A stretch of 64,000 nucleotides of DNA. It comes from Albidovulum sediminicola (lineage in GTDB: Bacteria > Pseudomonadota > Alphaproteobacteria > Rhodobacterales > Rhodobacteraceae). Below, piece after piece: positions 7,143-25,182 of this stretch. The position numbers and the translations under genes were made by a program. The notes beneath the pieces are model-generated. The model was not told the origin of the DNA. It saw nothing but the letters and a program-made list of their open reading frames with translations, and made no database searches. Position 1 is the stretch's first letter. Every line of letters begins with the position of its first letter. The stretch covers positions 1 to 64,000 of the forward strand of contig NZ_JAOWLA010000008.1 of assembly GCF_025751575.1 (NCBI RefSeq), in the 5' to 3' direction.

Positions 7143-7144
7143 AA

Positions 7145-8451: not shown

Positions 8452-8769
8452 ATGAGTCGTGCTTACGAAGAACTCCTTTGGGCAATGGGAGGCGGGCCTC
8501 GTCCGAAGCGCGCGCGAGGGCGTCCGGCCGTGCCCCTATCGATCGACCTGCGCCGCGCCATTGTTGTGGAAAAATACATGTCTCTATTTAGGGGACTCGG
8601 GCGAACGCATTCCAGAAATCAGGTTGTTGCGTCGCTGCAAAGACTGGCACATTCGGGCGATCTGGGTGAAAGCGAAGCGCAACTGTTTCCCCATGGAAAC
8701 CTGGCGTCCTCCATAAGTAGAGGAATGCAGGAGCTGAGGAAGCTAAGGGCGACTTTTTTGAGATCCTGA
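8452..8769 (+). CDS. Small protein of unknown function
   Basis: 105 residues, basic, with a proline/arginine-rich stretch (GGGPRPKRARGRPAVP) followed by a helical region. Start ATG 8452 is supported by AAGGAG six bases upstream; an in-frame ATG at 8338 overlaps the integrase stop but lacks this signal. A good terminator-like hairpin follows the stop. No family recognised. Its place after the integrase and its basic charge would suit a DNA-binding accessory protein, but this is only inference. Confidence 0.55.
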   Translation: MSRAYEELLWAMGGGPRPKRARGRPAVPLSIDLRRAIVVEKYMSLFRGLGRTHSRNQVVASLQRLAHSGDLGESEAQLFPHGNLASSISRGMQELRKLRATFLRS

Positions 8770-8773
8770 CTCT

Positions 8774-8804
8774 CCCGCGTTGCGAAATATTCGCGGGGAT
8801 TTTT
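8774..8804 (+). terminator. Rho-independent terminator
   Basis: CCCGCG and CGCGGG form a stem around a loop containing GCGAA-ATA-TTCGC, followed by GATTTTT. It lies 5 bases after the stop of the small gene ending at 8769 and separates the integrase unit from the AlpA-like gene. Confidence 0.7.
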
Positions 8805-8875
8805 CCGCAAGTTACCCGGCCGGCGTCTTCGTTCATCGTGCTGCCATGTCCCGAAGCATTCCGAGAGGAAACGAC

Positions 8876-9112
8876 ATGGCCAGTGATCTCAACGCCACGC
8901 GCCAGGAATATTATAAGGCGCCGATCAAACTAGTTGCGGACAGGCACCTTCGCCGCTCTGCCGTCGAACAACTGACCGGGCTTTCCCGATCGACAATCTA
9001 CGATTTGATGGCCAAGGGGCAATTCCCGCGGCCAGTTCGCCTCACCGCCAAGGCCGTTGCATGGCCTGAAAGCTCGATCGTCGCGTGGCTGGCCGCGCGC
9101 ACGTCCGCGTGA
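8876..9112 (+). CDS. AlpA-family phage regulatory protein / excisionase-like
   Basis: 78 residues with a MerR/AlpA-type helix-turn-helix: RRSAVEQLTGLSRSTIYDLM, then the typical AlpA tail KGQFPRPVRL, VAWPESSIVAWLAART. AGAGGA lies 7 bases before ATG 8876. AlpA proteins act as excisionases or activators of integrase genes in P4-like and related elements, so it probably controls excision of this element. Confidence 0.85.
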   Translation: MASDLNATRQEYYKAPIKLVADRHLRRSAVEQLTGLSRSTIYDLMAKGQFPRPVRLTAKAVAWPESSIVAWLAARTSA

Positions 9113-9123
9113 GCAATCCGGGA

Positions 9124-9840
9124 ATGGCACAGCTTCCGGCACTTCAGCGCTTCAACAATGCCTGTCTCGGCGATGGCGGTCGCACGGCGCGCGCCAGTTG
9201 CAGGAACAGCGCCGACCGGGCGCGCGTTGACTGGGCGATCATCTCTTCGACGATGCCGTCGCTTTTCGCATATTGCGAATTGACGCGCCACGACAACAGC
9301 GCGATCAGCCCCGTGCTTTGCGTCGGGGTGAAAAGACGTAACGCTTATATTCCAACAGTTTGCGCTATTCTGAATTCTGGAATCGAGAGTGAGGAGCCGG
9401 AAGGCCGCTGCCACGAGGATGAGGAGTCCGAGGAATTCCAGGAAACTAGCGACGTCGAGGATGCCAGCCAGGAGCCGAAAGATAAGCGGGCCGCCCTGAC
9501 GCCGGCCCGCCCTACGGTCATTCCCAAGGCGGAACCGCTCGTGAAGTTAATGTTCGTTGGTTTCGAGCCGATCACCCAGCGCCCCGCAATGGAGCCAAGC
9601 CACCTCCCTCCAGCCGATCTCGGCGGGATCCTCAACGCGCTGGGCGTGGTCGAGGGCATGCGGGGCAGGATGTTCTGTTGTGGGCGCGAGCATAGGGCCG
9701 AACTAGCAGGCCTACTAGCCTGGCTGGGCGGGATCGCGCGGCCGACTTCCTTGCCTCATCAAGGCCAATGCGCTGCAAGCCTGCTCGCTGGAGCGCGTCT
9801 CCGCCATCTCGAAGCTGATCGGGTAGAGGGTAATGGCTGA
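9124..9840 (+). CDS. Doubtful open frame, hypothetical protein
   Basis: A 238-codon frame fills the gap between the alpA-like gene and the replication-like gene. No domain is recognised. The middle (HEDEESEEFQETSDVEDASQ) is very acidic. Near the 3' end a different frame reads as a more natural alpha-helical tail (ALQACSLERVSAISKLIG, then TAG), so the region may be a decayed gene with frameshifts. It contains a TTCGCA-TAT-TGCGAA palindrome near 9266-9280. Start and reality are uncertain. Confidence 0.25.
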   Translation: MAQLPALQRFNNACLGDGGRTARASCRNSADRARVDWAIISSTMPSLFAYCELTRHDNSAISPVLCVGVKRRNAYIPTVCAILNSGIESEEPEGRCHEDEESEEFQETSDVEDASQEPKDKRAALTPARPTVIPKAEPLVKLMFVGFEPITQRPAMEPSHLPPADLGGILNALGVVEGMRGRMFCCGREHRAELAGLLAWLGGIARPTSLPHQGQCAASLLAGARLRHLEADRVEGNG

Positions 9841-10705
9841 CCCCTGGCTCAAATTCTACACCTCCGACTGGCGCTCAGACCCGCGCCTGCGGATGTGTGG
9901 GATCGCCGCGCGCGGCTTGTGGATCGAGATGATCTGCATCATGCACGAGGCAACCCCTTACGGCCATCTTCTCGTCAGCGGCCAACGCCCGACTGATGCG
10001 CAACTCGCCGTACAGGTAGGAACGACACCGGATCAGATCACAGCATTGCTGGGTGAACTGGAATCCGCTGGCGTGTTCTCCCGCACGAGACAGGGTGTCA
10101 TCTACTCGCGCAGATTGACACGCATGGCGAAGAAGGCGGCAACCGCTCGCAATAATGGTCGTAAGGGGGGCAACCCAACACTCAGAAATAAAACAGAAAA
10201 TCTACGGCCGATTAAGGACTTGGATAACACTGGCGATAACACCCAGAAGCCAGAAGCCAGATACCAGAATATTAGTAGCAGCAGCCCTAGCGCGCGCGAG
10301 GAGCAGGGGCTGGCAGAATCGGTTGCGCCGCAATCCGTCGATGACGACATAACCAACCTCTATGATCGCGTCGTGGCCGCCGCCGGCCTGCAGGTGGGTA
10401 CCATCCCGACGTACTGGATGCCTCCCACTGCGATCTATCATGTCGCCCGCTGGCGCGATCTCGGCCTCTTCGACGACGAGATCGTCGAGATCGTCCGCAA
10501 CCAGCGCCGCAACCACGCCGAACCGCCATCAGGGCCAAAGGCGTTCGATCGGGCGATGCAGATCTGCTCGTCCACCAAATCCCTTCCGAAGCTCGAACCC
10601 ATCCAGCAGATAGGATACAGCCATGGCAGACCAGCAGGAACCCCCCACCCAAATCACGAACGTCTCAGACGCATTGCTGAAGCGGCTGCAAGAGGCACGA
10701 CGTAG
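9833..10705 (+). CDS. Phage replication-type protein with winged-helix N-terminus
   Basis: 290 residues. The N-terminal 110 residues (ADPWLKFYTSDWRSDPRLRM, ARGLWIEMICIMHEA, YGHLLVSGQ, QVGTTPDQITALLGELESAGVFSR) follow a pattern common to prophage replication-initiation or DUF1376-like proteins with a winged helix. A linker rich in Asn/Ser/Lys follows, then a C-terminal helical part (WRDLGLFDDEIVEIVRNQ). It overlaps the next gene by 83 bases in another frame. Its probable role is DNA replication of the element. Confidence 0.7.
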   Translation: MADPWLKFYTSDWRSDPRLRMCGIAARGLWIEMICIMHEATPYGHLLVSGQRPTDAQLAVQVGTTPDQITALLGELESAGVFSRTRQGVIYSRRLTRMAKKAATARNNGRKGGNPTLRNKTENLRPIKDLDNTGDNTQKPEARYQNISSSSPSAREEQGLAESVAPQSVDDDITNLYDRVVAAAGLQVGTIPTYWMPPTAIYHVARWRDLGLFDDEIVEIVRNQRRNHAEPPSGPKAFDRAMQICSSTKSLPKLEPIQQIGYSHGRPAGTPHPNHERLRRIAEAAARGTT

Positions 10706-11126
10706 GAAAGAGGAGCGGCGCAACCGCCTGAATCCTCGCCTCATGTCCATGCTGGGCCCGTTCTGGTCGAGGCAAGAGACACCAGACGCCATCTTGGCCA
10801 TCGACCTCGAATGCTGGCTCGATGTCCTCGAAGTCTATTCCGACGAGGAGATCAGGCGGGCCTGGGCGGAGTACCAGCGCAGCGGCCCCCGTTCGGCCCG
10901 CGGCGTCCTCTACAAGCCCGATCCTGGCGCGCTTTACCAGATCATCGAGCGCAACCGAGCCCCAGCACGCGAGGCCGAGTACCGAAAGATGATGGAGAGC
11001 ATCAAGACCGAGGAGGCGCAGGCTGAAGCCGAGCGCCGCGCCTCCCTGCCGACCTACGAGCGCGCCAAGGAGATACTGCGCGAGGTCGCGGCCGCCAAGA
11101 CCGACAAGCCGGATGGAGACGTCTAA
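10623..11126 (+). CDS. Phage-type hypothetical protein, replication-region partner
   Basis: 167 residues, highly charged and helical, with a core 'AILAIDLECWLDVLEVYSDEEIRRAWAEYQRSG' resembling small proteins found beside replication genes in alphaproteobacterial prophages, which fits its position. It overlaps the preceding gene by 83 bases and is followed at once by a GTG-started small frame. No enzyme motif is seen. Confidence 0.55.
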   Translation: MADQQEPPTQITNVSDALLKRLQEARRRKEERRNRLNPRLMSMLGPFWSRQETPDAILAIDLECWLDVLEVYSDEEIRRAWAEYQRSGPRSARGVLYKPDPGALYQIIERNRAPAREAEYRKMMESIKTEEAQAEAERRASLPTYERAKEILREVAAAKTDKPDGDV

Positions 11127-11282
11127 GTGAACCCGCGCTTCCAGCATGCGATCTTCAACACGGACGGCCTCTGCCAATGGCTGAAGGCCGCCGTGCCGGG
11201 GCAGATTTGCGTCTACCATGCGTCGAAGAGCGCTCGCCGTGTCGCCGCCGCCCGGTCGCACCTCTTGGGCGCGCAGCTGTAA
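11127..11282 (+). CDS. Small phage-type protein (51 aa)
   Basis: Starts at GTG immediately after the TAA of the upstream gene and runs 51 codons: NPRFQHAIFNTDGLCQWL, then PGQICVYHASKSARRVAAA. The aromatic/polar composition is protein-like, and the back-to-back spacing suggests translational reinitiation. Function unknown. Confidence 0.45.
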   Translation: MNPRFQHAIFNTDGLCQWLKAAVPGQICVYHASKSARRVAAARSHLLGAQL

Positions 11283-11446
11283 GCAACACCGCGATTGGCG
11301 CAAGGCATGAATACTGGGAACGACCAAGATCTGATTGATTTGGTCCGGCATGCCTCGGCAATGGAAGCGTGCTTGGAGAAGACATTTTGCGCCCTTTTGA
11401 CCTATTTTTCACATCCGAACACCTAGGGCTTTATTGGTGTCTAGCC

Positions 11447-11746
11447 GTGACCGGAGAACAGCAGAGAGGCGAAGGTGTTGAGCGGGGCGCGCCGACCATC
11501 GTTAAGCAGAACCAACATAGAACACATTCGGGCACTATCGTCGTGGGCACCGACCGCATCCGGGTTCGAGGCCCGACCACGCGCGGCGTTTGGACGACCA
11601 TCGAAATTCTCGTGTGCCCGGTGACATTCTCCCCTCACCCACAGCAGATCGAGTCTGCCCGACGAGCCTGCGATGACTGGCGCCAATCGCTGGGTTGGTT
11701 GCGAGACGGGCTCATCGAATGCGGGATGCTAGCGAGGTCGCGGTGA
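11447..11746 (+). CDS. Hypothetical phage-type protein
   Basis: The C-terminal two thirds (VGTDRIRVRG..GVWTTIEILVCPVTFSPHPQQIESARRACDDW in pieces) resembles short proteins near the replication/packaging region of Rhodobacterales prophages. The beginning is uncertain: a longer frame opens at 11369, and GTG 11447 is only a guess. The preceding 160 bases hold no convincing gene. A small AGCCG/CGGCT hairpin follows at about 11791-11807. Confidence 0.35.
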   Translation: MTGEQQRGEGVERGAPTIVKQNQHRTHSGTIVVGTDRIRVRGPTTRGVWTTIEILVCPVTFSPHPQQIESARRACDDWRQSLGWLRDGLIECGMLARSR

Positions 11747-11868
11747 CAGAGGTCAAACCGAGGGTGCGGTCGTGTGAACGAACCCCACCAAGCCGCTGTT
11801 AACGGCTGGATTTCACCCTGCGGCTGCAATACCGTTTCAAAAAGATTTTTCGGGGGGCAGATTCACCA

Positions 11869-13402
<1,534 letters not shown>

Positions 13403-13410
<8 letters not shown>

Positions 13411-14692
13411 TTTCGTTCCCTTGGCTGACCTGTGCCTGAAGATCACGAAAGGCACGACGCCGAATGCGAAGGACGGCGGCTTTGCCGACAGCGGAATTAA
13501 CTATATCAAGTCCGAAAGCCTTTCTTATGACGGCTCGATTGATGCCACCAAGTTTGCGTTCATCTCTGAGGAAACGAACCAACGATTGAAGCGGTCCATC
13601 ATTCAGGATGGAGATATTCTTTACTCGATTGCTGGCGCGAACCTCGGAAAATGCGGGATCGCCCGCTCGGAATACTTGCCCGCAAACACCAATCAAGCTG
13701 TAGCAATTATTCGCGTTGATGAGCGGCGCGCTTCGAGCCGCTTTGTTAGTCTCTGCCTTCGCAACCCGAGCTTCGTTCAATCCGTTCTCGGCGGGGTAGC
13801 ACAATCAGCACAGCCAAATGTGAACCTCGCTGATATTGGCCGCTTCAGAATCCCGAACCTGCCCCTCCCCGAGCAACGCGCCATTGCTGCCACCCTCGGG
13901 GCGCTGGATGACAAGATCGAGTTGAACCGGAAGATGAACGCCACGCTGGAGGCCATGGCGCGGGCGCTGTTCCGCGACTGGTTCGTCGATTTCGGCCCCA
14001 CCCGCGCCAAGGCCGAAGGCCGCCCCCCCTACCTCTCCCCCGACCTCTGGCCCCTCTTCCCCGCCCGCCTCGACGCCGAGGGCAAGCCGGAGGGGTGGGC
14101 GGCTGGAACCCTGGGTGCTGTCGCCACAGCGCGGAACGAGGGAGTCGACCCCTCGGCGATCAGCCCCGACACGCCCTACATCGGCCTTGAGCACATGCCG
14201 CGTGGGTCAATCGCGTTGGCCGACTGGGAAGGAGCGGGTAAGGTTTCCTCAAACAAGGCCGCTTTTGCCGCAGGAGATTTCCTGTTTGGCAAGTTGCGCC
14301 CCTACTTTCATAAGGTCGGTATCGCCCCGGTCGCAGGTATCTGCTCCACTGACATTGTCGTTGCGCGCCCGAAATCTGCGGCTTGGGCCGGATTCGTCCT
14401 CGCTTGTATTTCGGACGAGGAGTTTGTCGCCTATACCGACAAGACCTCCACAGGCACGAAAATGCCCCGGACAAGCTGGTCGATCATGGCCAAGTATCCC
14501 GTGACACTGCCGCCCGCCGCGCTAGCCCAAGCATTCAACGATACCGTCTCTGCGATGTTTGAGCGGATCAAGGCCAACATCCACGAATCCCGCACCCTCG
14601 CCCAGACTCGCGACCTCCTTCTGCCGCGCCTGATGTCAGGGGAGTTGCTGGTGGCCAAAATCAGCGCATCCAACCCAAAGGGTATCGCATGA
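13403..14692 (+). CDS. hsdS: Type I restriction-modification system, specificity subunit
   Basis: 429 residues starting at GTG inside the hsdM 3' end. It contains two target-recognition domains (about 1-150 and 230-370) separated by conserved helical spacers ([20 protein letters not shown] and [20 protein letters not shown]). TRD1 is clearly richer in AT than the spacers, as expected when target domains are exchanged between strains. The protein selects a bipartite DNA target for HsdM and HsdR. It overlaps the next gene by four bases (ATGA). Confidence 0.95.
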
Positions 14693-15090
14693 ATCTCACA
14701 GTGCACTCCAAGAACGCCATGCTGCTGGGTAACGGCCTGATCGCCCATGTCCGTCGGTTGCAGGACTATCTCAAGAAACACGGCAAGCTGCCGACGAGTC
14801 CTTATCTGACCTACACCCAATTGGTCGAACAGACTGGGGCGCGGCTGGCGATGATGGGCATCGGAAATCCGCTCGACGAGGCGATGCAGGCGGTGCACGC
14901 GCCCGGCGTGCCGGAAAAGATGCGCGGCCTGACCATGTTTGTCCGTCCGAAAAGTGGTGAAATCGCCTATGGCGCTGGCAAGCATGATTGGCACGGCATC
15001 AACGCCAAGAACGTCATGCAATACCGGAAAGATGTTCTCGAACAGGATTGGTCGGGCGTGGCGTTCACGTCTGCAGATAGTGAGGTCTGA
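14689..15090 (+). CDS. Unknown accessory protein within the type I R-M operon
   Basis: 133 residues, not recognised. The protein begins [18 protein letters not shown] and contains YLTYTQLVEQTG and a C-terminal KHDWHGINAKNVMQYR stretch with several His/Trp/Asp residues. The segment 'YTQLVEQTG...GNPLDEAMQAV' looks like a small helical DNA-related or regulatory module. It is coupled to hsdS by an ATGA overlap and sits 2 bases before the next gene, so it is made with the R-M subunits. Its role could be modulation of restriction, but no evidence of function is visible. Confidence 0.7.
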   Translation: MNLTVHSKNAMLLGNGLIAHVRRLQDYLKKHGKLPTSPYLTYTQLVEQTGARLAMMGIGNPLDEAMQAVHAPGVPEKMRGLTMFVRPKSGEIAYGAGKHDWHGINAKNVMQYRKDVLEQDWSGVAFTSADSEV

Positions 15091-15092
15091 AA

Positions 15093-15989
15093 TTGCGGAC
15101 CTTGCTTCACACATTCCTGGAGCTCGGGGACGCGGTATCGCGGAACCTGGCCTTCGCACATGCCAATGACGGCAAGATAAGCTATGGCGAAGAGACCGTA
15201 ACAGAAACCAATCTGCTGGAAATCCTGCGTTGGCACTCCGATCGCGGCACACAATTGACTGCCATCTCAAAAGGTCAGGAAGCCAAGATCGGCGCCGATT
15301 GGGAGTGGGTAGTCGTCGGGCGGAAATACAGCCTTTTCATGCGTGTGCAAGCCAAGCGCACGAAGAAAAACGATCGCTTGACGATCAAGCACAAAGTCGG
15401 CAAGGCACCCAATATCCAAGAGCAGATCGACATTCTCATAAACAACTGTCCTGCAGCCACTCCTGACGAAATAACCTGGAAGCCTGTGTATTGCTTCTAT
15501 TCGAAGAACTCGGAGCGAAAGCTCTGGAAGTCTGCTGGAGGAAAAACCCCTTGGCGCCCTTACGAATATGGGTGCCTCATTGCAGACGCGACCGATATCA
15601 AGAAGAAGACCAGCATCAAGACGATTCAGGATGTCGAAGACGTATCAGTTCCATGGCACATCTTCTTTGCGCCGATAGGCTTCAAGACCCGGTACTTTTT
15701 TGCAGAATGGGCCGAAGGTAGCGACGGCACCTTGGGTTTCTTGATGTCAGAAGGTGTCATGGCAGTTTCGCCTGACCTTACTGATGACCGCAAGTCGCCA
15801 ACAAATGGCTTTCCAACCATCGAACAACTTAACGGCGAGATGGCAATCGACAAGGACATGGTCGGCGTCAGAGAAACTAACCCCGAGGAGCTGGAGCGCG
15901 TTCGCACTCGGGATCGTCGGGACGGAGTTGATGCTCCTCGATTCCTGATCCTCAATGTAAAGGATGAACCGAGCAGGAGGCGCGGATGA
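15093..15989 (+). CDS. DUF6615-like putative nuclease accessory protein
   Basis: 298 residues from a TTG start with GAGG upstream. The N-terminal half carries GEETVTETNLLEI, then GADWEW (67-72) and RVQAKR (84-89). This arrangement matches DUF6615-type proteins and looks like a PD-(D/E)xK-like nuclease core: an early Glu, an Asp of the DWEW motif and a Q-A-K as the third motif. The C-terminal half (YCFYSKNSE, YGCLIADATDIK, PWHIFFAP) is alpha/beta with unknown role. No ATPase motif. It is co-translated with hsdMS and overlaps the hsdR remnant by four bases. A defence-linked DNA-cutting role is inferred from motif and context. Confidence 0.65.
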   Translation: MRTLLHTFLELGDAVSRNLAFAHANDGKISYGEETVTETNLLEILRWHSDRGTQLTAISKGQEAKIGADWEWVVVGRKYSLFMRVQAKRTKKNDRLTIKHKVGKAPNIQEQIDILINNCPAATPDEITWKPVYCFYSKNSERKLWKSAGGKTPWRPYEYGCLIADATDIKKKTSIKTIQDVEDVSVPWHIFFAPIGFKTRYFFAEWAEGSDGTLGFLMSEGVMAVSPDLTDDRKSPTNGFPTIEQLNGEMAIDKDMVGVRETNPEELERVRTRDRRDGVDAPRFLILNVKDEPSRRRG

Positions 15990-16141
15990 CCACATTGCCA
16001 GAAGGCAAAGTTGAAGCAGTCCTCCTCGATCCACTTGCTGCGCTGGGTTACTGCTGCATAAGTGACGTGGGTTCAGGCCTAGATGGCACGACACCTGAGC
16101 CGATGACCAAGGCCAGACAGATGTCGGAGGCGGTGTTGTGA
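15986..16141 (+). pseudogene. Truncated hsdR, first ~50 codons only
   Basis: A strong AGGAGG precedes ATG 15986, which overlaps the upstream stop (ATGA). The 51-codon product starts MTTLPEGKVEAVLLD and aligns over its first 39 residues with the intact HsdR at 16935 (24 identical by eye: shared TL, VEAVLLD, ALGY, DG, PE). It then ends in TGA. This is the start of the original operon hsdR, cut off after about 50 codons. The divergence from the intact copy argues for replacement by a different hsdR allele rather than simple duplication. Confidence 0.85.
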
Positions 16142-16165
16142 CCCGCCCGCCCCTAACCCCGATGC

Positions 16166-16182
16166 GTTGCGTTTTTCGCAAC
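16166..16182. promoter_or_regulatory. Perfect palindrome upstream of the NYN gene
   Basis: GTTGCGTTTTTCGCAAC has 6-bp arms around a T5 loop. It lies between the hsdR remnant and the NYN gene, just before a TTGACC sequence at about 16190 that could be a -35 box. It could be an operator or a weak terminator for the hsdMS operon; orientation does not decide. Confidence 0.4.
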
Positions 16183-16298
16183 TGGACTCTTGACCTGGTG
16201 GAGAAAATGTCCACTTATGCGTTCATATCTCCCTCGGTGCTTCGGTGCCGGGGCGCGCGGCGGCCCCAGTGGCCGCTGCTGCTTTTTCGGGGGTTCGC

Positions 16299-16925
16299 AT
16301 GAGAACCCATGTCTATGTCGACGGTTACAACCTCTACTTTGGTTGCCTCAAGAAGACTCCGCACAAGTGGTTGAATCTGCACGCGCTTTGTAGCGCGCTG
16401 ATGCCGCAGAACGACATCCGTGCCATCCGCTATTTCACCGCGCAGGTCAGCGGCACCCCGCATGATCCCGACCAGCCGACCCGCCAGCAGACCTATTTCC
16501 GGGCTCTGCGCACCTTGCCGCAGGTCAGCATCCACCTCGGCCATTTCCTGACCCACGAGGTCAGCATGCCCGACGCCGCCGACTGGCAGCGCGGAAGATA
16601 CACCCCGCGGCGGGTGATGAAGACCGAGGAGAAGGGCTCGGACGTCAACATCGCCACGCATCTGTTGATCGACGCCTTCGATGATGCGTTCGACGTGGCC
16701 GTGATCGTCAGCAACGACAGTGACCTCAAGGAACCTATCTCGGTGGTTCGCAACCGGTTCGGCAAGACAATCGGGATTCTCAACCCCCAAGCCAAGGTCA
16801 GCCGCGCCCTGCAACCGCTGGCGCATTTCATCAAGCCGATCCGGCCAGGCGCCTTGGCGAACGCGCAGTTTCCGGCCGTAATGCACGACGGCAGGGGCCA
16901 GTTTCACAAACCGGCGCGGTGGTAG
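16299..16925 (+). CDS. NYN/LabA-like PIN-domain putative ribonuclease
   Basis: 208 residues. The NYN fold is clear: THVYVDGYNLYFG (D8, N11) at the first strand, EKGSDVNIATHLLIDA (D115) and VIVSNDSDLKEPI (D140, D142). These acidic residues form the metal site expected of an active nuclease, followed by GKTIGILNP. The start at MRTHVYVD is preferred over an in-frame ATG at 16245. The gene lies alone between a truncated and an intact hsdR, 9 bases before the latter, so both are probably co-transcribed. NYN proteins usually cut RNA; a role in defence or regulation is inferred. Confidence 0.88.
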   Translation: MRTHVYVDGYNLYFGCLKKTPHKWLNLHALCSALMPQNDIRAIRYFTAQVSGTPHDPDQPTRQQTYFRALRTLPQVSIHLGHFLTHEVSMPDAADWQRGRYTPRRVMKTEEKGSDVNIATHLLIDAFDDAFDVAVIVSNDSDLKEPISVVRNRFGKTIGILNPQAKVSRALQPLAHFIKPIRPGALANAQFPAVMHDGRGQFHKPARW

Positions 16926-16934
16926 GAGTCGGGA

Positions 16935-19900
16935 ATGGCAACACTGAGCGAAGCCGAAGTCGAAGCTGTCCTGCTCGATCAGTTGGGCGCGCTTGGCTAT
17001 GCCTGTCTGAACGATGCGGTTTCGGGCCCCGATGGTTCGTCACCTGAGCGCGAAGCCTATTCGGACACGATCCTTGCGGGGCGCCTGCGCGAGGCGATGG
17101 CCCGGCTGAACCCGCAGATCCCCGAGGATGTGCGCGAGGATGCGCTGCGCCGCGTGTTGGCCAGCGACCGCCCCTCCCTGATCGAGGAGAACCGCCGCCT
17201 GCATCGGTTCATGGGCGAAGGCGTGCCGGTGGAGTATCGTGCTGACGACGGCACAATCCGGGGCGATGCCGTGCGGTTTGTGGACTCTGAGGACCAGCAG
17301 AACGACTGGCTGGCCATCTCGCAGTTCACCGTAATCGAGAACGGGGCCAACCGCCGCCCGGATGTGGTGGTGTTCTTGAACGGTCTTCCGGTGGGCGTTA
17401 TCGAGGTGAAGAAGCCGGGGGCCGAGACCGCAACGCTTAGCGCGGCCTTCAACCAGTTGCAGACCTACAAGGCGCAAGTCCCGTCTCTCTTCCGCGCAAA
17501 TGCCGTGCTGGTCACAACCGATGGCATCCAGGCCCGGGTGGGCTCGCTCACCGCTGATCTGGAACGCTTCATGCCCTGGCGCACCACCGATGGAGCCGAA
17601 GTAGCGCCCAAGGGCGCGCCGGAAATGCCGGTGTTGGTCGAGGGCGTATTCGCGCGGTCGCGCCTTTTGTCGCTGATGCGGGATTTCACGGTCTTCGGCG
17701 ACACCTCCGGCGGCATCGCCAAAATCATCGCGGGCTATCATCAGTTCCACGCCGTGAAGCGGGCGGTGGCCAGAACGGTCGAGGCAAGCCGGTCGGAGGG
17801 CGACCGCAAAGCCGGGGTGATCTGGCACACGCAGGGTTCGGGCAAGAGCCTCCTCATGGCATTCTACGCGGGGCAGCTTGTGCGCGAACCGGCGATGGAA
17901 AACCCGACCATCGTCGTCATCACCGACCGTAACGACTTGGACGACCAGCTATTCGGCACCTTCTCGATGTGCCGCGACCTGATCCGCCAGGCGCCGATTC
18001 AGGCCGACAGTCGCGAGGATCTTCGGAAGGCTTTGTCGCGCGCCTCGGGCGGGGTGGTGTTCAGCACTATCCAGAAATTCGCACCGGAGAAGGGCGGGGC
18101 CTATCCGCTGCTCACGGATAGGCGAAACGTCGTGGTGATCGCTGATGAGGCACACCGCAGCCAATACGGGTTCAAGGCCCGCGTCGAGAAGACCGGCGAT
18201 ATCGCCTACGGCTTCGCCAAGCACCTGCGCGACGCCCTGCCGAACGCCTCCTTCATCGGCTTCACGGGCACGCCGATTGAACAGGACGACGTGAATACGC
18301 CCGCTGTGTTCGGCCATTACATCGACATCTACGACATCAGCCGCGCGGTTGAAGATGGGGCGACGGTGCCGATCTATTACGAAAGCCGCCTCGCGCGGAT
18401 CGAGCTGCCAAATGAGGAAAAGCCAAAGGTCGATGCCGAGATCGAAGAGCTGACCGAGGATGAGGCGGTCAGCGAACAGGAACGGCTGAAGCGGAAGTGG
18501 TCCACCGTTGAGGCGCTTGTCGGTGCCGAAAAGCGGCTGCGCATGGTTGCCGAGGACCTCGTCGCCCATTTCGAGGCCCGGGTGCAGGCGATGGACGGCA
18601 AGGCCATGGTGGTCTGCATGAGCCGCCGGATCTGCGTCGACCTCTACAACCAGATCGTCGCGCTGCGTCCCGACTGGCATTCCGACGACGACAGCGCCGG
18701 TCTGGTAAAAATCGTGATGACAGGATCAGCCTCGGACCCCGAGGCCTGGCAGCCCCATATCGGCGGCAAGGCCCGCCGCGATCTGCTGGCCAAACGGGCG
18801 AAGGATCCGAAGGACCACCTTAAACTGGTGATCGTTCGGGACATGTGGCTGACCGGCTTCGACAGTCCCTCCATGCACACGATGTACATCGACAAGCCGA
18901 TGCGCGGTCATGGGCTGATGCAGGCCATCGCCCGGGTGAACCGGGTGTTCCGCGACAAACCTGCCGGGCTGATCGTCGACTATATCGGAATTGCACAGAA
19001 CCTGAAGTCGGCCCTAGGCCAATATTCCAAGGCGGACCAGGAACAGGCAGGGATCGACGAGGGCGAAGCCGTCGCAGTTCTTTTGGAACGCCTAGATGTC
19101 GTGCGCGCCTTGTTCCACGGCTTCGACTACTCGGCCGGATTGACTGGCACCCCGCACCAACGACTTGTCGCGCTGGCAGAGGCGCTGAACTGGGTTCTGG
19201 CTAGACAGGACGAAGCAGCGCAGCGCGAAACCGACAGAGAGGCCAAGAAGGCGGCGCATCGCCGATACACGGATGCGGTTCTCGCCCTCTCAAAAGCGTT
19301 CGCACTTTGCTCAGCCAGCGACACTGCCCGCGATGTCCGCGACGAGGTCGGCTTCTTCCAGACGGTGCGCGCAGCCATGGTAAAGACTGCCGACACGTCC
19401 GGTCGGTCGGCCGCGGACCGCGATCTTGCCATTCGTCAGATTGTGAATGATGCCGTCGCCTCGACCGAAATCGTCGACATATTGTCGGCAGCCGGACTGT
19501 CGTCGCCCGATATTTCCATCCTGTCAGACGATTTCTTGGCCGAAGTCGACAAAATGGAAAAGAAGAATCTCGCCCTAGAGGCACTCAGGAAACTGCTCAA
19601 CGACGAGATCCGGTCGCGCAGTAGGTCGAATGTTATCGAGACCCGAAAGTTCTCGGAGCGGCTCGAAGAAGCCATCGCGCGCTACCACACCAATGCCATC
19701 AGCACTGTTGAGGTTCTTCAGGAGTTAATCGCACTGGCCAAAGACGTTCGCGACGCACGAAGCCGCGGTGAAGAGACTGGCCTGACACCCGAAGAGATCG
19801 CCTTCTACGACGCGCTGGCCGACAACCGGAGCGCGGTTGACGTGCTCGGCAACGACCAGTTGAAAGTCATCGCCCATGAACTACTGACAGGACTCAAGGC

Positions 19901-20066
19901 CAACGTCAGCATCGACTGGGCGCACCGCGACAGCGCCAGGGCGCGTCTGAGGGTCCTCGTCAAGCGTATCCTTCGGAAGTACGGCTATCCCCCGGACCTT
20001 GAGGAAGCGGCAGTGCGAGGCGTTCTGGCACAGGCAGAAGCGATGCTCTCCGAGACGGTGCTGTGA
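16935..20066 (+). CDS. hsdR: Type I restriction-modification system, restriction/translocase subunit
   Basis: 1043 residues. The N-terminal PD-(D/E)xK nuclease has RRPDVVVF (D143) and VIEVKKP (E157, K159). It is followed by a superfamily 2 motor with Walker A TQGSGKS (299-305), [18 protein letters not shown] box [13 protein letters not shown] (404-407), GFTGTPI, and later [20 protein letters not shown], and a helical C-terminal domain. It translocates and cuts unmethylated DNA together with HsdM and HsdS. All catalytic motifs are present. It is separated from hsdMS by two accessory genes, a truncated hsdR and a NYN gene, which is unusual. Confidence 0.96.
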
Positions 20067-20108
20067 CGTGGGATTGTCCACGAGGATTCGGAAAGGCGGG
20101 TAGTTGAG

Positions 20109-20492
20109 GTGGTCCACAATCAAGAACAAATCTCAAACGGTCGAAGCCTATTCCAGTGCGTTCCCCGTGCTTTCCTTTCAACCGCTCTTCTCGCCGTTGC
20201 CGCATTGGCGGGCCCCGCTACGGCCGAGACGTACCAGTTGGTCTGCGAAAACTCTCGCCAAGAATACCTGGTGCGATTCAGCGATGGCGATACAAACATC
20301 CATCTGGATGTACCGGAGGGAACCACGCTCTATCGCGTCCTCGCGGTGGAGGAAACAGAGGCGCGACATGTGGTGGTGGCACTGACTATGAATGATGGCC
20401 CCACTGTCAGGCTTTCGCTGCGACCCTATCTGCGGATGGAATACTGGAGTGGAAACGAGGTATTTCAAACTGATGCTTGCCGAACACAATAG
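20109..20492 (+). CDS. Small exported protein of unknown function
   Basis: 127 residues from a GTG start 42 bases after hsdR. A hydrophobic stretch AFLSTALLAVAALAGPATA-E is a good Sec signal peptide, giving a mature protein of about 90 residues with a beta-rich look (YQLVCENSRQEYLVRFSDGD, HVVVALTMNDGPTVRLSLRP) and two cysteines. The start may be later than GTG 20109, since the signal peptide begins about 15 residues in. No family recognised. Confidence 0.6.
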   Translation: MVHNQEQISNGRSLFQCVPRAFLSTALLAVAALAGPATAETYQLVCENSRQEYLVRFSDGDTNIHLDVPEGTTLYRVLAVEETEARHVVVALTMNDGPTVRLSLRPYLRMEYWSGNEVFQTDACRTQ

Positions 20493-20573
20493 ACGGTCGC
20501 ACCAACAGGAGCCCCCCCCCTTCGGCGTGGTTCCTCTCTGCCCCCGAACGTATGCGGGCGGGGGCAGCGCTGC

Positions 20574-20675
20574 GGCGCGGTGCCACTGGACCCGGTCTAT
20601 TGCGACGTTGCCGTGCGCCGGTGGTAGTTGGCGACGGGGAGTAAGGCGGTACCGGCGACTTCTTCATGTCGATAA
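20574..20675 (+). pseudogene. Remnant of a phage-type DNA methyltransferase C-terminus
   Basis: In one frame the sequence reads LDPVYCDVAVRRW, stop, LATGSKAVPATS. The block 'LDPVYCDVAVRRW-x-LATG-x-KAV' is the usual C-terminal end of phage N4/N6 DNA methylases, with TAG at 20625 where a CAG glutamine codon is expected. Nothing else of the gene is seen. The rest of 20493-20834 holds no convincing gene; a minus-strand frame there is low in protein character. Confidence 0.35.
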
Positions 20676-20834
20676 AGTAAGCTGACGTTTCCGTCGGCAA
20701 ATCCGTCATCCTTGGATCCAAAGTGTAAAACTCAGAGCAGCAACGACGGAGCCGCAGTCACATCTTGGTTGCGTGATCATGTCGCCTGCGCATAGCCTTG
20801 ACTGGCATGCTAAAGGCGAGAGAGGCACGCGGCA

Positions 20835-21584
20835 ATGAATGTATTTCGGAAAGCATTTGCAAGAGAACCTTTGGGAATGTTCGCAGCAATTACTTCTCTG
20901 ATCACCGCCGTGGTGGCTGTTGCGCCTATAATATTCGACGATGACTTCACTGTAATATCGGAATGCTCACCCGTTACACCGGAGAGCCGTGTTATCGGCG
21001 GCGCCGGCGGCCTTGCCGGGGCAGGAAGCCTCTATATTGAGGGCACATGCAGACTAATTAATGCTGAGAGATTCGACATTGGCGTTATTGACATAACAAC
21101 CATTCCGATATGGTACTCAGGAAACGACAACCCAAGAACCGTAGATGATACTCGGCGGCATCAAATCGCAAATAATGCAGATTTCTTTGATAACCCCCCT
21201 ATCCTAAACGCGCTATCAGCCATGGAGATCCACGTGATCTTCGAAGTTGATCACTCGGCGCGTTTCTCTTGGCTTGCTGTAGGAATTGGGAAGTACGCGG
21301 CCTCCTTGTCGGACGCGGGGCCACTCAAATTGAACGATCTTTACCTTTCTGCACTAAAATCTGATATGGAGTGCTATCGAGAAGGTATGCCGATAGAGCG
21401 GGCAATCCGGGAAGTTTTTGAGGGTGAGCCCGGATACTCACTCGTAAGTATTCGACTCGCCAATGATCAGAGAATAGAAATTTATCCAAATTTTGAAGGA
21501 TTCTTTGACAGTAACGGCCTGCCGATGGTTGGAACTCCCGCCTGCCCAGAACTCTCAGAATACTACTTAGACGCCGATAACTAG
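20835..21584 (+). CDS. Membrane-anchored protein of unknown function
   Basis: 249 residues. An N-terminal segment (MFAAITSLITAVVAVAPIIF, about residues 15-34) is a membrane anchor or uncleaved signal, followed by a soluble domain with C44, C72, C180 and C238 and acidic, AT-rich coding sequence unlike the GC-rich flanks. Protein features include GGAGGLAGAGSLYIEGTCRL and a C-terminal 'IEIYPNFEGFFDSNG'. No family recognised. The low GC points to recent acquisition with the element. Location facing the periplasm is inferred from the anchor. Confidence 0.7.
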   Translation: MNVFRKAFAREPLGMFAAITSLITAVVAVAPIIFDDDFTVISECSPVTPESRVIGGAGGLAGAGSLYIEGTCRLINAERFDIGVIDITTIPIWYSGNDNPRTVDDTRRHQIANNADFFDNPPILNALSAMEIHVIFEVDHSARFSWLAVGIGKYAASLSDAGPLKLNDLYLSALKSDMECYREGMPIERAIREVFEGEPGYSLVSIRLANDQRIEIYPNFEGFFDSNGLPMVGTPACPELSEYYLDADN

Positions 21585-21585
21585 G

Positions 21586-21761
21586 TGTTTGATCCCATGG
21601 TTTGATGGTGCGATCCTTTCGCAGGAATGGAAGGAACCCGTATGGGACAGATACGTCACGGCTGCGCCACGACTACGTGCGCCGTCAGAGCGGCAATACT
21701 GGGATCGAAAGCTTCGACCGCGGCGCTGAGACGCGAGTTGGGCAGTGACAAGGATCAGTAA
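21586..21761 (+). pseudogene. IS481-type transposase, 5' fragment
   Basis: From 21586 the sequence TGTTTGATCCCATGGTTTGA resembles an IS481 terminal repeat and leader. ATG 21642 opens a 39-codon frame beginning MGQIRHGCATTTCAVRAAI, the recognised start of IS481-family transposases, ending at TAA 21759-21761. The rest of the transposase is missing. Confidence 0.65.
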
Positions 21762-21769
21762 CCGATCCA

Positions 21770-21970
21770 GTGGATCATTTCCCCGACGAACCCGAAGACT
21801 GTAATGCCCCCGCTGAAGTTGCGCCGCCCTGGCCGCCCTTGGTTGACTACACCGTCGGAGAGCAGGCCCGCGCAGCCGACGAGGTCGAGGCGCTGCCGGA
21901 AGGCGCCGCAATCGTCAAGATGCTGAGCGACTCCGCGGTTCTGCGCGACCGAGCGCGCGCGTGCCGATGA
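21770..21970 (+). CDS. Small hypothetical protein (66 aa)
   Basis: 66 codons, with VDYTVGEQARAADEVEALPE and a C-terminal 'IVKMLSDSAVLRDRARACR'. The pattern resembles small proteins of alphaproteobacterial mobile elements with a helical 'ML.DYAVLRDQ' tail, but no function is known. It follows the IS481 fragment closely and may have lost its own upstream signals. Confidence 0.4.
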   Translation: MDHFPDEPEDCNAPAEVAPPWPPLVDYTVGEQARAADEVEALPEGAAIVKMLSDSAVLRDRARACR

Positions 21971-22078
21971 CAGGCCCTGGGGCGAGAGCGGTCGTTCAAG
22001 CAGAGCAATTAGACCTCCAAAGTGCAATCGGCCGCCTTAGCCGGCGGCCGAGCATCAATGAACTGCTTAGCAGAGCTG

Positions 22079-22288
22079 TTAGCTAGCAATGGCCAATGAC
22101 TGCACGTAGCCCGCACGCAGTTTTGCGAGAAGCTTGTCATTCCCACCGTACACCTCTGCTGCGTTCGGGTTAACGTGCAGCATATTCTTAAGGCTTTGGC
22201 GCGCCATCCAGTCGACGGTACGCTCAAGAGCGGCATCCGCTTCGACAGAAGTCGCCTCAAGCATCTCCTCGGTGTAATAACTCGACAT
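22079..22288 (-). CDS. Small hypothetical protein (69 aa)
   Basis: Starts at ATG 22288 with AAGGAAGG six bases upstream, a better signal than that of most genes in this region. Product begins MSSYYTEEMLEATSVEADAA and is acidic and helical with a conserved-looking 'ERTVDWMARQSLKNML'. It is divergent from the nitrilase-fold gene and overlaps only its unlikely upstream extension. No family recognised; the divergent placement would suit an antitoxin or regulator, though no HTH is seen. Confidence 0.5.
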   Translation of the reverse strand: MSSYYTEEMLEATSVEADAALERTVDWMARQSLKNMLHVNPNAAEVYGGNDKLLAKLRAGYVQSLAIAS

Positions 22289-22462
22289 AGTAGAGCCTTC
22301 CTTGGTCTGGACCCAACTGACAGCACTTCTCGGCTCCCACGTCAAGCCAGAACGACCCGTTCGGTTCTCGGACCACCCTTGCAATCAAAGATTGAGGCAT
22401 GGTTATCATCGCGTGCTGCCCTAGCGGGCTTCTGTAAAATTTTCAAGGCGGAGTCTGCCTTC

Positions 22463-24247
22463 ATGAAGACATCAGCTGCGCAGTCTCCGCAGACTAACAA
22501 CTACCGCTCCGTATTTGCCGAACTTCAAAATGTTCTACCACACGGCACTCAGCCCCTGATTAGCGCAGACGGTGATGTGTCAGCTGAACCTAGATGGGAT
22601 GTGCTGCCGGCTTTGCCAACAGACGTCTTCGGCGCAGTCGCGCACTTGTTACGGGTAAGTGGTGTGATGGGCTGGTTCGAGCCTGCTCCAGAGTGTGACG
22701 ATCCTGCCTTGTCTGTACACATCACCATGGAAGAAAGAGCTTTGTTGAGGGACTGGGCCTTCAAGTGGCGAACTGGCGACGACGCTGGGCCGATTCAAGA
22801 CCTTTGGACTGCACTCGTCATCAACCACGGGTCCGATTGCCTCCGACCAAGGCTGCTGTCTCAGAATCGCCAAGGTTCACTCGAATGGTGTAGGGTAGCC
22901 TTGAAACTCCTCGTCGTTGCCGACCTTGCTGCTGAAGGCTTGGCTCGGCCGCTTCCACAGGATGAGGAAAGCGCAAACGTCATGCGCGATCTGCTGAAAG
23001 CAAAGAACAAACCTGATAGGGACGGCGAAACTGAGCTTACGATCGCTGGGAGCGCCCTCAAGCGCCGACATCGGCATCCAGCCTCAATGACGACGCTAAT
23101 TGATACCGACGTGGCATGCGTTCTTCCCAAGAGCAGGGTGGCACAGGTCGGATGTACTCTGCGCAGCCTTTCTGCAAATCTCGCGCTGTTGCCGCCAAGG
23201 GCGTCTGTTAGGTGCCAGTGGGCAGAGCCAGTCGCGCAGCTTCGGGATGATGATCGGGCTACACTGGATATCTTGCTGATTCCGGCCCCTTTTGAGATCA
23301 ATGGGGTCGACTTCCAGGAGCGGCCCTCCAGGGGCGAATCTAAGGGTAGGCGCCCATGGGGAAATTTCTCTCTCCATCAAAGCTGGCTAAAAGAGGCGTC
23401 TCAACTCGAAGAAACAACGCAGAAGCTAATCGAAGCCGCCAAAAGGCAGACCAGATCTCTGAATGCCATAATGTTCCCCGAGTTTGCACTGGACTGGGAA
23501 AGTTTCGATCGCATCTGCAAGGCTGCTTGGAGCGCGGACCCTTCGTTGGAGTTTATCATAGCTGGCTCCTCTAGGAACTGCGAAGGTCACGAAGGCAACC
23601 ACGTTCTAACCGCCCTTCGTCACGACAGCGCGACGTCCACCGCAACCACGCGGCCCTGGATTTCTGCTGTGAGCCGAAGAAAGCACCATCGCTGGCGCCT
23701 CGATGCGCGCCAGATTTCTGATTACGCGCTAGCGAGTGCCTTGAATCCTGCGGTCGACTGCTGGTGGGAGAGCCACCAGATCAGGACCCCGGAATTGTAC
23801 TTTCATCGCTTCAGGCAATCTTCCACGTTCGTAACGATGATCTGTGAGGACCTCGCGAGGAGTGACCCCTGTCATGAAATTATTCGCTCGGTAGGGCCAA
23901 ACCTTGTGTTCGCTCTGTTGATGGATGGTCCCCAACTTCCCGGACGTTGGGGCGCAAGATATGCCTCCAGCCTCGCGGACGACCCTGGTTGCAGCGTTCT
24001 GACGTTTACGTCTTGGGGGCTGGTCAAGCGAACCAACCAAAGCGGAAAGTACGATCCGTCGCGCTCAGTTGCGCTTTGGAAAGACGAAACCGGAAACGTG
24101 GAACAGATATTGATGCCCGCTGGCGATGGCCCGGCCGGAATTCTGGTTTCATTGGCAGGAAAGACCACCCGCGACTGGACTATCGACGGAAGAGGTGTCG
24201 AGAACTGGTCATGGAGATTTCACGGCCAGCAGCCGATCCTGCCCTAG
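22463..24247 (+). CDS. Nitrilase-fold (carbon-nitrogen hydrolase-like) protein with unknown N-terminal domain
   Basis: 594 residues from ATG 22463 (GGCGGAG nine bases upstream). An upstream extension to 22175 is rejected because a small minus-strand gene with a good ribosome site covers it. Residues 1-260 are unrecognised and helical. From about 265 a carbon-nitrogen hydrolase fold appears: LDILLIPAPFEI, IMFPEFALDW (E340), EFIIAGSS, RRKHHRW (K407), STFVTMICEDLAR (C461), and GPNLVFALLMDGPQLPGRWG. E340, K407 and C461 fit the catalytic triad, so it is probably active or a binder of an amide/nitrile. The AT-richer coding and island location suggest a defence or signalling role; function is not shown. 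Confidence 0.7.
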   Translation: MKTSAAQSPQTNNYRSVFAELQNVLPHGTQPLISADGDVSAEPRWDVLPALPTDVFGAVAHLLRVSGVMGWFEPAPECDDPALSVHITMEERALLRDWAFKWRTGDDAGPIQDLWTALVINHGSDCLRPRLLSQNRQGSLEWCRVALKLLVVADLAAEGLARPLPQDEESANVMRDLLKAKNKPDRDGETELTIAGSALKRRHRHPASMTTLIDTDVACVLPKSRVAQVGCTLRSLSANLALLPPRASVRCQWAEPVAQLRDDDRATLDILLIPAPFEINGVDFQERPSRGESKGRRPWGNFSLHQSWLKEASQLEETTQKLIEAAKRQTRSLNAIMFPEFALDWESFDRICKAAWSADPSLEFIIAGSSRNCEGHEGNHVLTALRHDSATSTATTRPWISAVSRRKHHRWRLDARQISDYALASALNPAVDCWWESHQIRTPELYFHRFRQSSTFVTMICEDLARSDPCHEIIRSVGPNLVFALLMDGPQLPGRWGARYASSLADDPGCSVLTFTSWGLVKRTNQSGKYDPSRSVALWKDETGNVEQILMPAGDGPAGILVSLAGKTTRDWTIDGRGVENWSWRFHGQQPILP

Positions 24248-24585
24248 GGCGTTCCAACTGGGCGGCTAGCGTTGTAGGAGCAGTTGCGCGTGACTGCCTG
24301 CCTGTGCACGCCGTTGCGGTTCTTCTGGATCGGTGTTGATGTGGCGTCGATGTAGACGGTAACGCCGAATGCCCAACGCCTTATGTTGGGTAGTAACTTT
24401 CTGATTCATTTCGAAACTTTTGTTTCGGCGCTAGGACTTGAGGCAGCGAACTTCAGGTTATGTGACTGAAGGCGAGGAACTCAGAGATTCCGGCTATTTC
24501 GAATTTTGATTGGGGGATAATTGGGGGGATTAGAAAATCTATCTATGACAATATTGTAATTTTTTCAAATTCTTAGTGAAATAAA
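24248..24585. other. Right end of the element, no convincing gene
   Basis: 338 bases between the nitrilase-fold gene and the att repeat. On the minus strand around 24260-24360 a short stretch reads DATSTPIQKNRNGVHRQAV and could be transposase or integrase debris, but it is too short to name. The last 80 bases are AT-rich and contain the arm-type repeats at 24510-24530. Confidence 0.5.
24510..24530. repeat. Integrase arm-type direct repeats, right end
   Basis: TTGGGGGATA followed by ATTGGGGGGAT, matching 7121-7142 in sequence, order and orientation. In the joined circular form these would lie about 55-75 bases on one side of the core repeat, with the left-end copies about 120 bases on the other. 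Confidence 0.6.
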
Positions 24586-24662
<77 letters not shown>

Positions 24663-24735
24663 GCACCGGGGGCGTATTTGGCCGAAGCGCAGGAGGTTGT
24701 CAAGCGATCCGCCGGCCGTCGGGCAAGATTTTTCT

Positions 24736-25182
24736 TCAGGCCGGCGCCGGTGCGTTCTGGCGCACGAAAGCCTCGATCTCGGCGGCCGGGCGGGCACCGG
24801 CAAGGCGCGCGACCTCGCGCCCCTTCGCATAGAGGATCAGGAGCGGAATGCCCCGGATTCCAAGGCGCTGGGAGATCTGGGGATGGTCCTCGGTGTTGAT
24901 CTTGGCCAGCCGCGCACGGCCCTTGAGCGCCATGCTGGCCTGAGCGAATTGCGGCGCCATCATCCGGCAAGGCCCGCACCACGGCGCCCAGTAATCGACC
25001 AGTAACGGCAAGGTATCGCCGCGCACCATCTTGTCATGCACTGCGGGGTCCAGTGCCGCAACCTTGCCGCCCGCCAGCGGGTCACCGCAGGTGCCGCATT
25101 TGGGGCTCTGCGCGATCCGCTCGGCGGGCACGCGGTTCGTCTGGCCGCAGGTGGCGCAGGTGAGTTTGAAGCTCTCGGTCAT
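24736..25182 (-). CDS. trxC: Thioredoxin 2-type protein with N-terminal zinc finger
   Basis: 148 residues. The N-terminal 35 residues hold two CxxC pairs (TCATCGQ and KCGTCGD) that bind zinc in TrxC. The thioredoxin fold follows with active site [14 protein letters not shown] and cis-proline RGIPLLILY. It reduces protein disulfides in the cytoplasm, and the TrxC type is often linked to oxidative stress. ATG 25182 is preferred over the adjacent in-frame GTG because GAGGG is better spaced. It lies 73 bases from the tRNA and outside the island. Confidence 0.93.

Follow-up and report, generated by a model that had tools for sequence, protein, structure and literature searches.

PrrC is embedded in the EcoprrI type I restriction-modification (R-M) operon. 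In enteropathogenic Escherichia coli (EPEC), DarTG2 lies between hsdS and hsdR, at a site called a potential recombination hotspot in the accessible part of its description (PMC12255303). In Vibrio cholerae, TgvAB is embedded in the type I operon of Vibrio pathogenicity island 2 (VPI-2), and the accessible part of that paper credits embedded genes with antiphage activity of their own and gives HEC-05 and HEC-06 as Hma-embedded (PMC11411939). Type III toxin-antitoxins are laid out as a promoter, a small RNA, a Rho-independent terminator and a ribonuclease gene (PMC5086642, accessible part). Here we analyzed 64,000 nucleotides of Albidovulum sediminicola (assembly GCF_025751575.1, contig NZ_JAOWLA010000008.1, positions 1 to 64,000; hereafter the window), in which a type I R-M operon carries a 51-codon frame resembling the start of hsdR and, downstream of it, a NYN-domain gene preceded by a predicted two-hairpin RNA and followed by a full-length hsdR. 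We read the short frame as the seam of a slot duplication in this operon, with a probability of roughly 0.75, and propose more tentatively that the RNA and the NYN protein act together.

The short frame as a chimera of an hsdR start and an hsdS tail

An earlier note on this DNA took the short frame for the first 51 codons of a truncated hsdR. The frame (15986-16141) is indeed an open reading frame (ORF), with AGGAGG at 15975-15980, and, as that note had also seen, it shares 24 of 39 N-terminal residues with the intact-looking hsdR that begins 793 bases past its end. This identity of 62% gave E 3.7e-7 in a search of the whole genome, and the likeness to hsdR is therefore not due to chance. However, the hsdR-like portion comprises codons 1 to ~39 only, whereas codons ~40-51 and the stop codon correspond to the 3′ end of an hsdS. 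From ~16099 onward, the window aligns uninterruptedly through the hsdS end, stop codon and spacer of a related locus, L035 (genome G207), into the NYN gene; L039 (genome G143) gives a matching alignment, less close than that of L035. When anchored at the stop codon, the right part of the frame agreed at 27 of 39 nucleotides with the end of hsdS in both L035 and L039, compared with at best 19 of 39 among 23 hsdR ends and 21 of 39 among 23 hsdM ends. The tail MTKARQMSEAVL was also considered as an hsdR 3′ end left by an internal deletion, but only 18 of 39 nucleotides agreed end-anchored, the local score was matched by 8 of 500 shuffles, and this reading was dropped because L035 has an hsdS end at that place. 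Among the 23 loci, many hsdS tails follow the pattern SGE-x-R(V/I/L)..AE, and hsdR starts contain PER. Since the seam of two IMG/VR contigs, L083 and L084, retains CCT GAG CGG GA, the two parts were perhaps joined at a shared CGGG microhomology. On these alignments, the short frame is very probably a seam between an hsdR start and an hsdS tail.

The same seam was present in five loci, namely the window, L059 (a Rhodobacteraceae metagenome-assembled genome), L060 (Tabrizicola soli), L083 and L084. In the first three, a 133-amino-acid (aa) ORF (X133) and a DUF6615 gene precede it; in L083, ORFs of 192 and 148 aa do so, the latter of which overlaps the scar's ATG. Over the stretch before the seam, L084 and L083 share 76-100% identity per 100 bases. 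The frames of L083 and L084 are two codons shorter than that of the window and 40-42% identical to it. Because the junction is common to five loci with two different proximal cassettes, a single event creating the seam, with a later exchange of the proximal cargo, would explain them best. The suggestion that the frame is a footprint of hsdR recombination, and not a fresh local duplication, thus holds. The search of genome contigs for the cassette returned L059, L060 and two distant loci. Viral contigs searched with the 133-aa ORF, the DUF6615 protein and the exact scar pattern gave no match, and L083 and L084 surfaced later through their NYN genes. No cassette was found in the genera of G207 and G121 (1 and 4 genomes), and 22 genomes of the window's own genus, searched by DNA, yielded its own copy and, outside DUF6615, three matches of 31-84 bases.

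Selection on the hsdR fragment

The ratio of nonsynonymous to synonymous substitution rates (dN/dS) of the hsdR-like fragment was determined over 39 codons in three sequences (window, L059 and L060). Between the window and L059, 7.2 synonymous changes over 30.9 sites and 23.8 nonsynonymous changes over 86.1 sites gave a dN/dS of 1.25; the ratio was 1.08 between the window and L060, and 1.79, on 6 changes, between L059 and L060. For the same three pairs, dN/dS was 0.07-0.09 in hsdM, 0.13-0.21 in the 133-aa ORF, 0.10-0.19 in the DUF6615 gene, 0.02-0.05 in the NYN gene and 0.04-0.06 in hsdR. Given that the fragment lies near 1 and the other operon genes at 0.02-0.21, it appears, on a small sample, to be a relic without protein constraint. 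A proline near position 32, found in 23 of 23 functional HsdR starts, is lost in all three sequences. The fragments of the window and L059 are 73% identical, compared with 96% for DUF6615 and near identity for the spacer that follows the seam, and for this reason a rapidly evolving peptide was considered as well; the changes per site in the fragment (0.28-0.35) fall within the synonymous range of the operon genes (0.10-0.97), and therefore neutral decay can suffice.

Direction of the event and alternative explanations

L035 has the order hsdM-hsdS-NYN-hsdR without the scar. Its proteins are about 94.3-94.5% (HsdM), 65% (HsdS), 92.5% (NYN) and about 89.7-90% (HsdR) identical to those of the window. 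Positions 7342-8136 of L035, within hsdS, match window 13862-14656 at 83% DNA identity; its hsdS stop lies at 8169, and 8188-12089 match window 16160-20054. After ~14656, the hsdS tail of the window diverges from the tails usual in relatives (23 loci compared). The window thus looks like L035 with ~1.45 kb inserted in the last hsdS codons, just before the stop. L035 and L039 were the two NYN carriers among 20 fetched relatives; L085, also scar-free, is probably the same record as the G143 contig behind L039. Moreover, HsdM and HsdR identities correlated across 190 pairs drawn from 20 loci, with r = 0.987 (of 23, L043, L048 and L050 being left out for broken frames). Because hsdS matches L035 on both flanks of the insert and HsdM and HsdR agree, NYN-hsdR was probably resident and the upstream cassette inserted, a direction less certain than the seam itself. 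This reverses the order of events in the earlier note, in which the native hsdR was cut and NYN-hsdR imported.

In the reading that we prefer, the starting operon would have been hsdM-hsdS-NYN-hsdR, its hsdS-hsdR interval serving as a slot for exchangeable defence genes. A stretch of ~1.45 kb would have entered the last hsdS codons, bringing a new tail for hsdS, both cassette genes (133-aa ORF and DUF6615 gene) and a 5′ end from another hsdR, the left-hand join presumably being made by homologous joining. The displaced old hsdS tail would now lie downstream, fused to the hsdR 5′ end, and two tandem slots would result. The proximal slot would reach from hsdS to the dead hsdR start, and the distal slot would hold the RNA and the NYN gene before the working hsdR. 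The dead hsdR start may have acted as a homology arm during the change of the proximal cassette.

Several observations weigh against this account. The correlation between HsdM and HsdR owes its strength to the breadth of the set and has little power inside the clade, whose members are 88-96% alike; a swap between close relatives would be invisible to it. The comparison of hsdM with hsdR, which the earlier note had proposed, thus favoured no import but says little about events within the clade. A donor operon with the 133-aa ORF, the DUF6615 gene and a full hsdR but no NYN gene, the arrangement that the earlier note had proposed to look for, was not found in 295 family genomes and 389 relatives. 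DUF6615 relatives occurred in 5 of the 295 (own genome included, the four others at most 35% identical) and in 3 of the 389 (own included), and the 133-aa ORF occurred among the 295 in the own genome only. Alignment of 15986-16141 with hsdR starts of relatives confirmed that the fragment is hsdR-like but named no donor: it is 63-72% identical in DNA to functional starts of the clade and 73% to the L059 fragment, and being about equally far from both it points to none. The same final sequence would arise if hsdM-hsdS-X133-DUF6615-hsdR had been resident and an incoming hsdS tail-NYN-hsdR had replaced the resident hsdR past codon 39. DUF6615 genes do occur in the hsdS-hsdR slot without NYN (L042, L044 and L046, each with an extra gene before hsdR), but both window hsdS 13862-14656 and the displaced tail match the scar-free NYN operon L035, and HsdM and HsdR identities agree, so that we consider this direction unlikely.

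Slot duplication with decay of the fragment also has to be weighed against a kept small protein, for example a regulator or a competing piece of HsdR. The frame is open in all five loci, and the Shine-Dalgarno sequence and the overlap with the preceding gene are kept in the window, L059 and L060, as is the overlap in L083. The earlier note had named a short gene conserved in relatives as a separate peptide as the case contrary to its view; four further loci do have the frame open with the seam, but the three sequences compared show a dN/dS near 1. Against a kept protein stand the values of 1.08-1.25, the loss of the proline, and the shorter, divergent frames of L083 and L084, which together make it very improbable. 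As a caution on these ratios, constraint is loose even in functional hsdR starts (dN/dS 0.13-0.64 in clade pairs over the same 38 codons; those of L059 and L060 are one synonymous change apart), and the fragment compared with functional starts gave 0.20-0.69, which is as expected if constraint was lost late and is not proof of it. Neutral decay also leaves without explanation the spacer 16142-16230, whose near identity in the window, L059 and L060 exceeds the conservation of synonymous sites in the flanking genes.

A predicted two-hairpin RNA beside the NYN gene

The 68 bases before the NYN ATG differ from L035 at one position and from L039 at one, whereas identity to L039 over the whole of window 16163-16928 reaches only 81%. 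A comparable layout precedes NYN genes found in other settings. From 67 NYN upstream regions, 25 were picked by eye for showing this layout, and RNAalifold folded their alignment into two hairpins, with 12 of 17 pairs changed on both sides. Compared with shuffles, which ignore relatedness, paired cells amounted to 90.8% versus 73.9%, cells with two-sided change to 86 versus 28.6 (sd 5.3; 0 of 500 shuffles), the covariation score to 0.568 versus 0.244 (0 of 500; slid structures, 0.07-0.21) and further pair types to 37 versus 31.9 (5 of 500). For 51 model-fitted matches, a set biased to structure, the score was 0.708 versus 0.239. The number of pairs with two-sided change (12 versus 10.3), however, was reached by 88 of 500 shuffles, and the window RNA shows no exceptional stability (z -1.46, a fold matched by 17 of 200 shuffles). 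An RNA model, R1, scored 68.9 bits at window 16216-16304, the window being one of its own sequences, and a terminator-like stem lies at 16257-16279. Rfam gave nothing at gathering score over window 11000-21000, and across 10 NYN loci, with E allowed up to 1, its matches were limited to tRNAs and four weak ones lying away from the RNA.

The distribution of the RNA was then related to that of NYN genes. At an E-value cutoff of 0.05, R1 matched 46 of 73 NYN loci. Since 24 loci had supplied the model, the matches outside the model set number 22 of 49, some of them near-duplicates. A scan of 181 class genomes with fast filters, scoring at most 24 candidates per genome, gave 26 matches at E up to 0.01. 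All 9 of at least 29 bits lay directly before a NYN gene; 7 of them had supplied the model, G351 and G400:C68 had not. Among 13 NYN-positive genomes, 8 had such a match, and the RNA of G500 was seen in the NYN-locus scan instead. Of the 17 weaker matches, 3 lay by G400 NYN genes. The other 14 (L164-L175, L177 and L178; 19.7-27.1 bits) had no NYN gene within ~1.5 kb on each side and are perhaps chance terminators. A second model, R2, found more NYN-linked copies but scored 31.2 bits at the NYN-less L174, and the counts thus rest on R1. The RNA was found beside NYN genes by model in Pseudomonadota, Actinomycetota and Spirochaetota (Leptospira L184, in the usual RNA-NYN layout), and by eye in Acidobacteriota (L182; R2 weak at 14.2 bits). 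On the small E. coli NYN plasmid L082, R1 had no match and similar hairpins were seen by eye only; R2 found none on L082, L185 and L187. Two NYN genes in a row each have their own RNA in L072 (G201), and two RNA units in a row precede one NYN gene in G400 (L151 and L154) by model and in L101 by eye, whereas the window has one.

Within NYN loci, 44 of 54 R1 matches immediately preceded the NYN start and shared its strand. Three lay 140-249 bases further upstream, two beyond the start on the same strand and one was unplaced; four were on the opposite strand and represent three lineages (L091 and L186, the same Mycobacterium prophage type; L183, a Paenarthrobacter plasmid; and L088, metagenomic). 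Promoter-like hexamers were counted in 37 RNA units of the 54 matches, near-duplicates and some weak or tandem ones being left out. A hexamer pair of at least 9/12 matches occurred in 23 of 37, against 4.1 expected from shuffles, and in 34 of 37 the second hexamer began no more than 6 bases ahead of the model start. These 34 include the three scored cases with the RNA on the opposite strand. The strict promoter scan found none in the window, L183 and L186, and a terminator was found in all three.

The NYN protein of the window matches the HEC-09 model along residues 1-207 (model 3-202 of 203). Its sole Pfam match is NYN, not a ToxN family, and PDB chains gave no match at E up to 0.01. Acidic residues D7, D114, D139 and D141 (numbered without Met) are invariant in the nine sequences of alignment A1. 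NYN domains were reportedly described by Anantharaman and Aravind in 2006 as predicted RNases with a PIN-like fold, and we take HEC-09 to be of the same Hma-embedded origin as HEC-05 and HEC-06. NYN genes of the wider family also occur on ~3.5 kb plasmids, on which R1 and R2 detect no RNA; these would fit a selfish or protective module.

Because the promoter-like site and the terminator are kept where the RNA cannot be a leader, the arrangement points to a separate RNA partner of the NYN nuclease, in a layout like that of type III toxin-antitoxins. We tentatively suggest that the HEC-09-type NYN protein and the ~65-nucleotide two-hairpin RNA form a two-part module, in which the RNA would bind and restrain the nuclease or be its cofactor; the NYN protein may be a ribonuclease held by the RNA and released once that balance is disturbed, by analogy with type III toxin-antitoxins. 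That most loci have a single RNA unit, and that the fold is other than that of ToxN, weighs against action of the type III kind. It is also conceivable, if somewhat doubtful, that the RNA is only a cis-acting attenuator or terminator setting NYN expression and no partner of the protein. The 44 same-strand matches with their T-run just before the NYN start fit such a role, as does the lowest-energy fold of the window, in which CCCUCG pairs with the G-rich stretch before the NYN start, although this fold is not unusually stable. The opposite-strand RNA of three lineages, with a promoter-like site at the same distance, cannot be a NYN 5′ leader. In the literature covered, with preprints and most subscription papers outside its scope, nothing was found on a structured RNA with bacterial NYN genes or on NYN genes in type III toxin-antitoxins, and an earlier description may exist.

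Layout of the operon and the proximal cassette

The assignment to type I R-M follows from HsdM, HsdS and HsdR with their family domains in a single operon (Table 1); HsdR has HSDR_N, SWI2_SNF2, T1R_D3-like and T1RH-like_C domains. By its gene content, HsdMSR would restrict unmodified DNA. A second, distant HsdR (31% identity) is encoded on contig C55 of the genome. The ATGA coupling that the earlier note had described for the whole chain exists at hsdS/133-aa ORF and at DUF6615 gene/short frame, but hsdM and hsdS overlap by 8 bases and 2 bases separate the 133-aa ORF from the TTG start of the DUF6615 gene. The NYN gene likely starts at its ATG and not at GTG 16245, given the conserved MRTHVYVDGYN and the conserved leader before the ATG.

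Table 1. Features of the type I R-M operon and its embedded genes (window coordinates)
Feature	Position	Strand	Basis
hsdM, type I methylase subunit	11869..13410	+	Pfam N6_Mtase 3.3e-105, HsdM_N 1.8e-23
hsdS, specificity subunit	13403..14692	+	Pfam Methylase_S 3.5e-17
133-aa ORF (X133), cassette gene	14689..15090	+	homologs in L059, L060 and a Paracoccus plasmid
DUF6615 gene, 298 aa	15093..15989	+	Pfam DUF6615 1.7e-8
Scar, left part: probable first ~39 codons of an hsdR	15986..16102	+	homology to hsdR starts, dN/dS
Scar, right part: probable last ~12 codons and stop of the former hsdS	16103..16141	+	stop-anchored identity to L035/L039
Promoter-like site before RNA, TTGACC-17-ACTTAT, 8/12 matches	16190..16218	+	
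Predicted structured RNA	16225..16287	+	hairpin 1 16233-16252, hairpin 2 16255-16282, T-run 16283-16287; transcript ends inferred
NYN-domain protein, 208 aa, PADLOC HEC-09	16299..16925	+	Pfam NYN 8.5e-12, HEC-09 1.1e-44
hsdR, full-length restriction subunit	16935..20066	+	Pfam, PADLOC REase_I, NCBIfam hsdR; agrees with HsdM

The 133-aa ORF had no Pfam, PADLOC or NCBIfam match. The DUF6615 protein carries the pattern EETVTET / KIGADWEW / VQAK, invariant in 5 sequences, and its EETVTET / GADWEW / VQAK elements presumably resemble a PD-(D/E)XK nuclease core; against PDB sequences it had no match below E 0.14. AlphaFold models, with a predicted local distance difference test score (pLDDT) of 31.6 for DUF6615 and 39.5 for X133, were too weak for use, and nothing on DUF6615 was found in the literature covered. 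The DUF6615 protein could be a second effector and the 133-aa protein its partner. Cassette genes also occur on plasmids. L079 9001-9485 (Paracoccus aminovorans plasmid p_IV) has the 133-aa ORF and only about the first 26 DUF6615 codons, with no hsd gene by tblastn in the 18 kb around, and is by its sequence a second, separate cassette relic. In L067 4299-9858 (Martelella lutilitoris plasmid), a DUF6615 gene and a 4.4-kb gene are divergently oriented, and the annotation shows no R-M gene in the vicinity.

Upstream of the operon, a tyrosine integrase (7121-8341) and, by eye, an AlpA-like small regulator (8780-9112) suggest an integrated element. A tRNA-Ala gene lies at 24587-24662, and no direct repeats of at least 16 bases were found in window 6300-25200.

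Among the 20 fetched family loci, which are the full-length HsdR matches other than the own one (partial or weaker matches left out), hsdS and hsdR are 445-4868 bases apart in 17 and 29-47 in 3. Unrelated genes, varying among relatives, thus stand between hsdS and hsdR. A Pfam scan of nineteen ORFs, a subset of the slot ORFs in these loci, found SIR2_2 (L036, L053), Abi_C and Peptidase_M78 (L037), DUF4411 (L040), a DEAD helicase (L041), DUF6615 (L042, L044, L046), DUF4268 (L044, L046, L048), DUF3800 (L047), and DUF6978 with DUF1828/1829 (L043); four of the nineteen (L034, L040, L041, L045) had no Pfam match.

Comparison with known systems

Type I operons are known to harbour embedded defence genes between hsdS and hsdR, and the scar itself is a new form of embedded cargo. 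If slot duplication is correct, the seam is a readable record of how a slot grows: a neighbour's cargo would be inserted together with pieces of the flanking genes, not cleanly exchanged, leaving two slots in a row, and the hsdR-start/hsdS-tail chimera would be a concrete signature to seek in other operons. Likewise, if the proposed NYN-RNA module is real, it would be a new RNA-controlled nuclease system with type III-like action but a different nuclease fold and RNA, would add such a module to the defence inventory, would act here as a second layer of defence inside a type I R-M operon, and would explain how a NYN ribonuclease is carried safely on plasmids, in prophages and inside R-M operons.

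As in the embedded-defence type I operons, putative defence genes lie inside the hsd operon here too; the window differs in its doubled slot and chimeric hsdR/hsdS seam, which the accessible descriptions of the EPEC and VPI-2 cases do not contain. The NYN protein agrees with PADLOC HEC-09 along the model, but an RNA adjoins the window gene, and none with HEC-09 was found in the literature covered, as far as its text was accessible. With the type III toxin-antitoxins ToxIN and CptIN, the window may share the order of a promoter-like site, a predicted small RNA, a predicted terminator and a predicted ribonuclease gene. It differs from them in having a NYN domain, not ToxN, and the NYN-linked RNA is mostly one unit, in contrast to the tandem short repeats of type III systems, is modelled as two hairpins and also exists in opposite-strand layouts.

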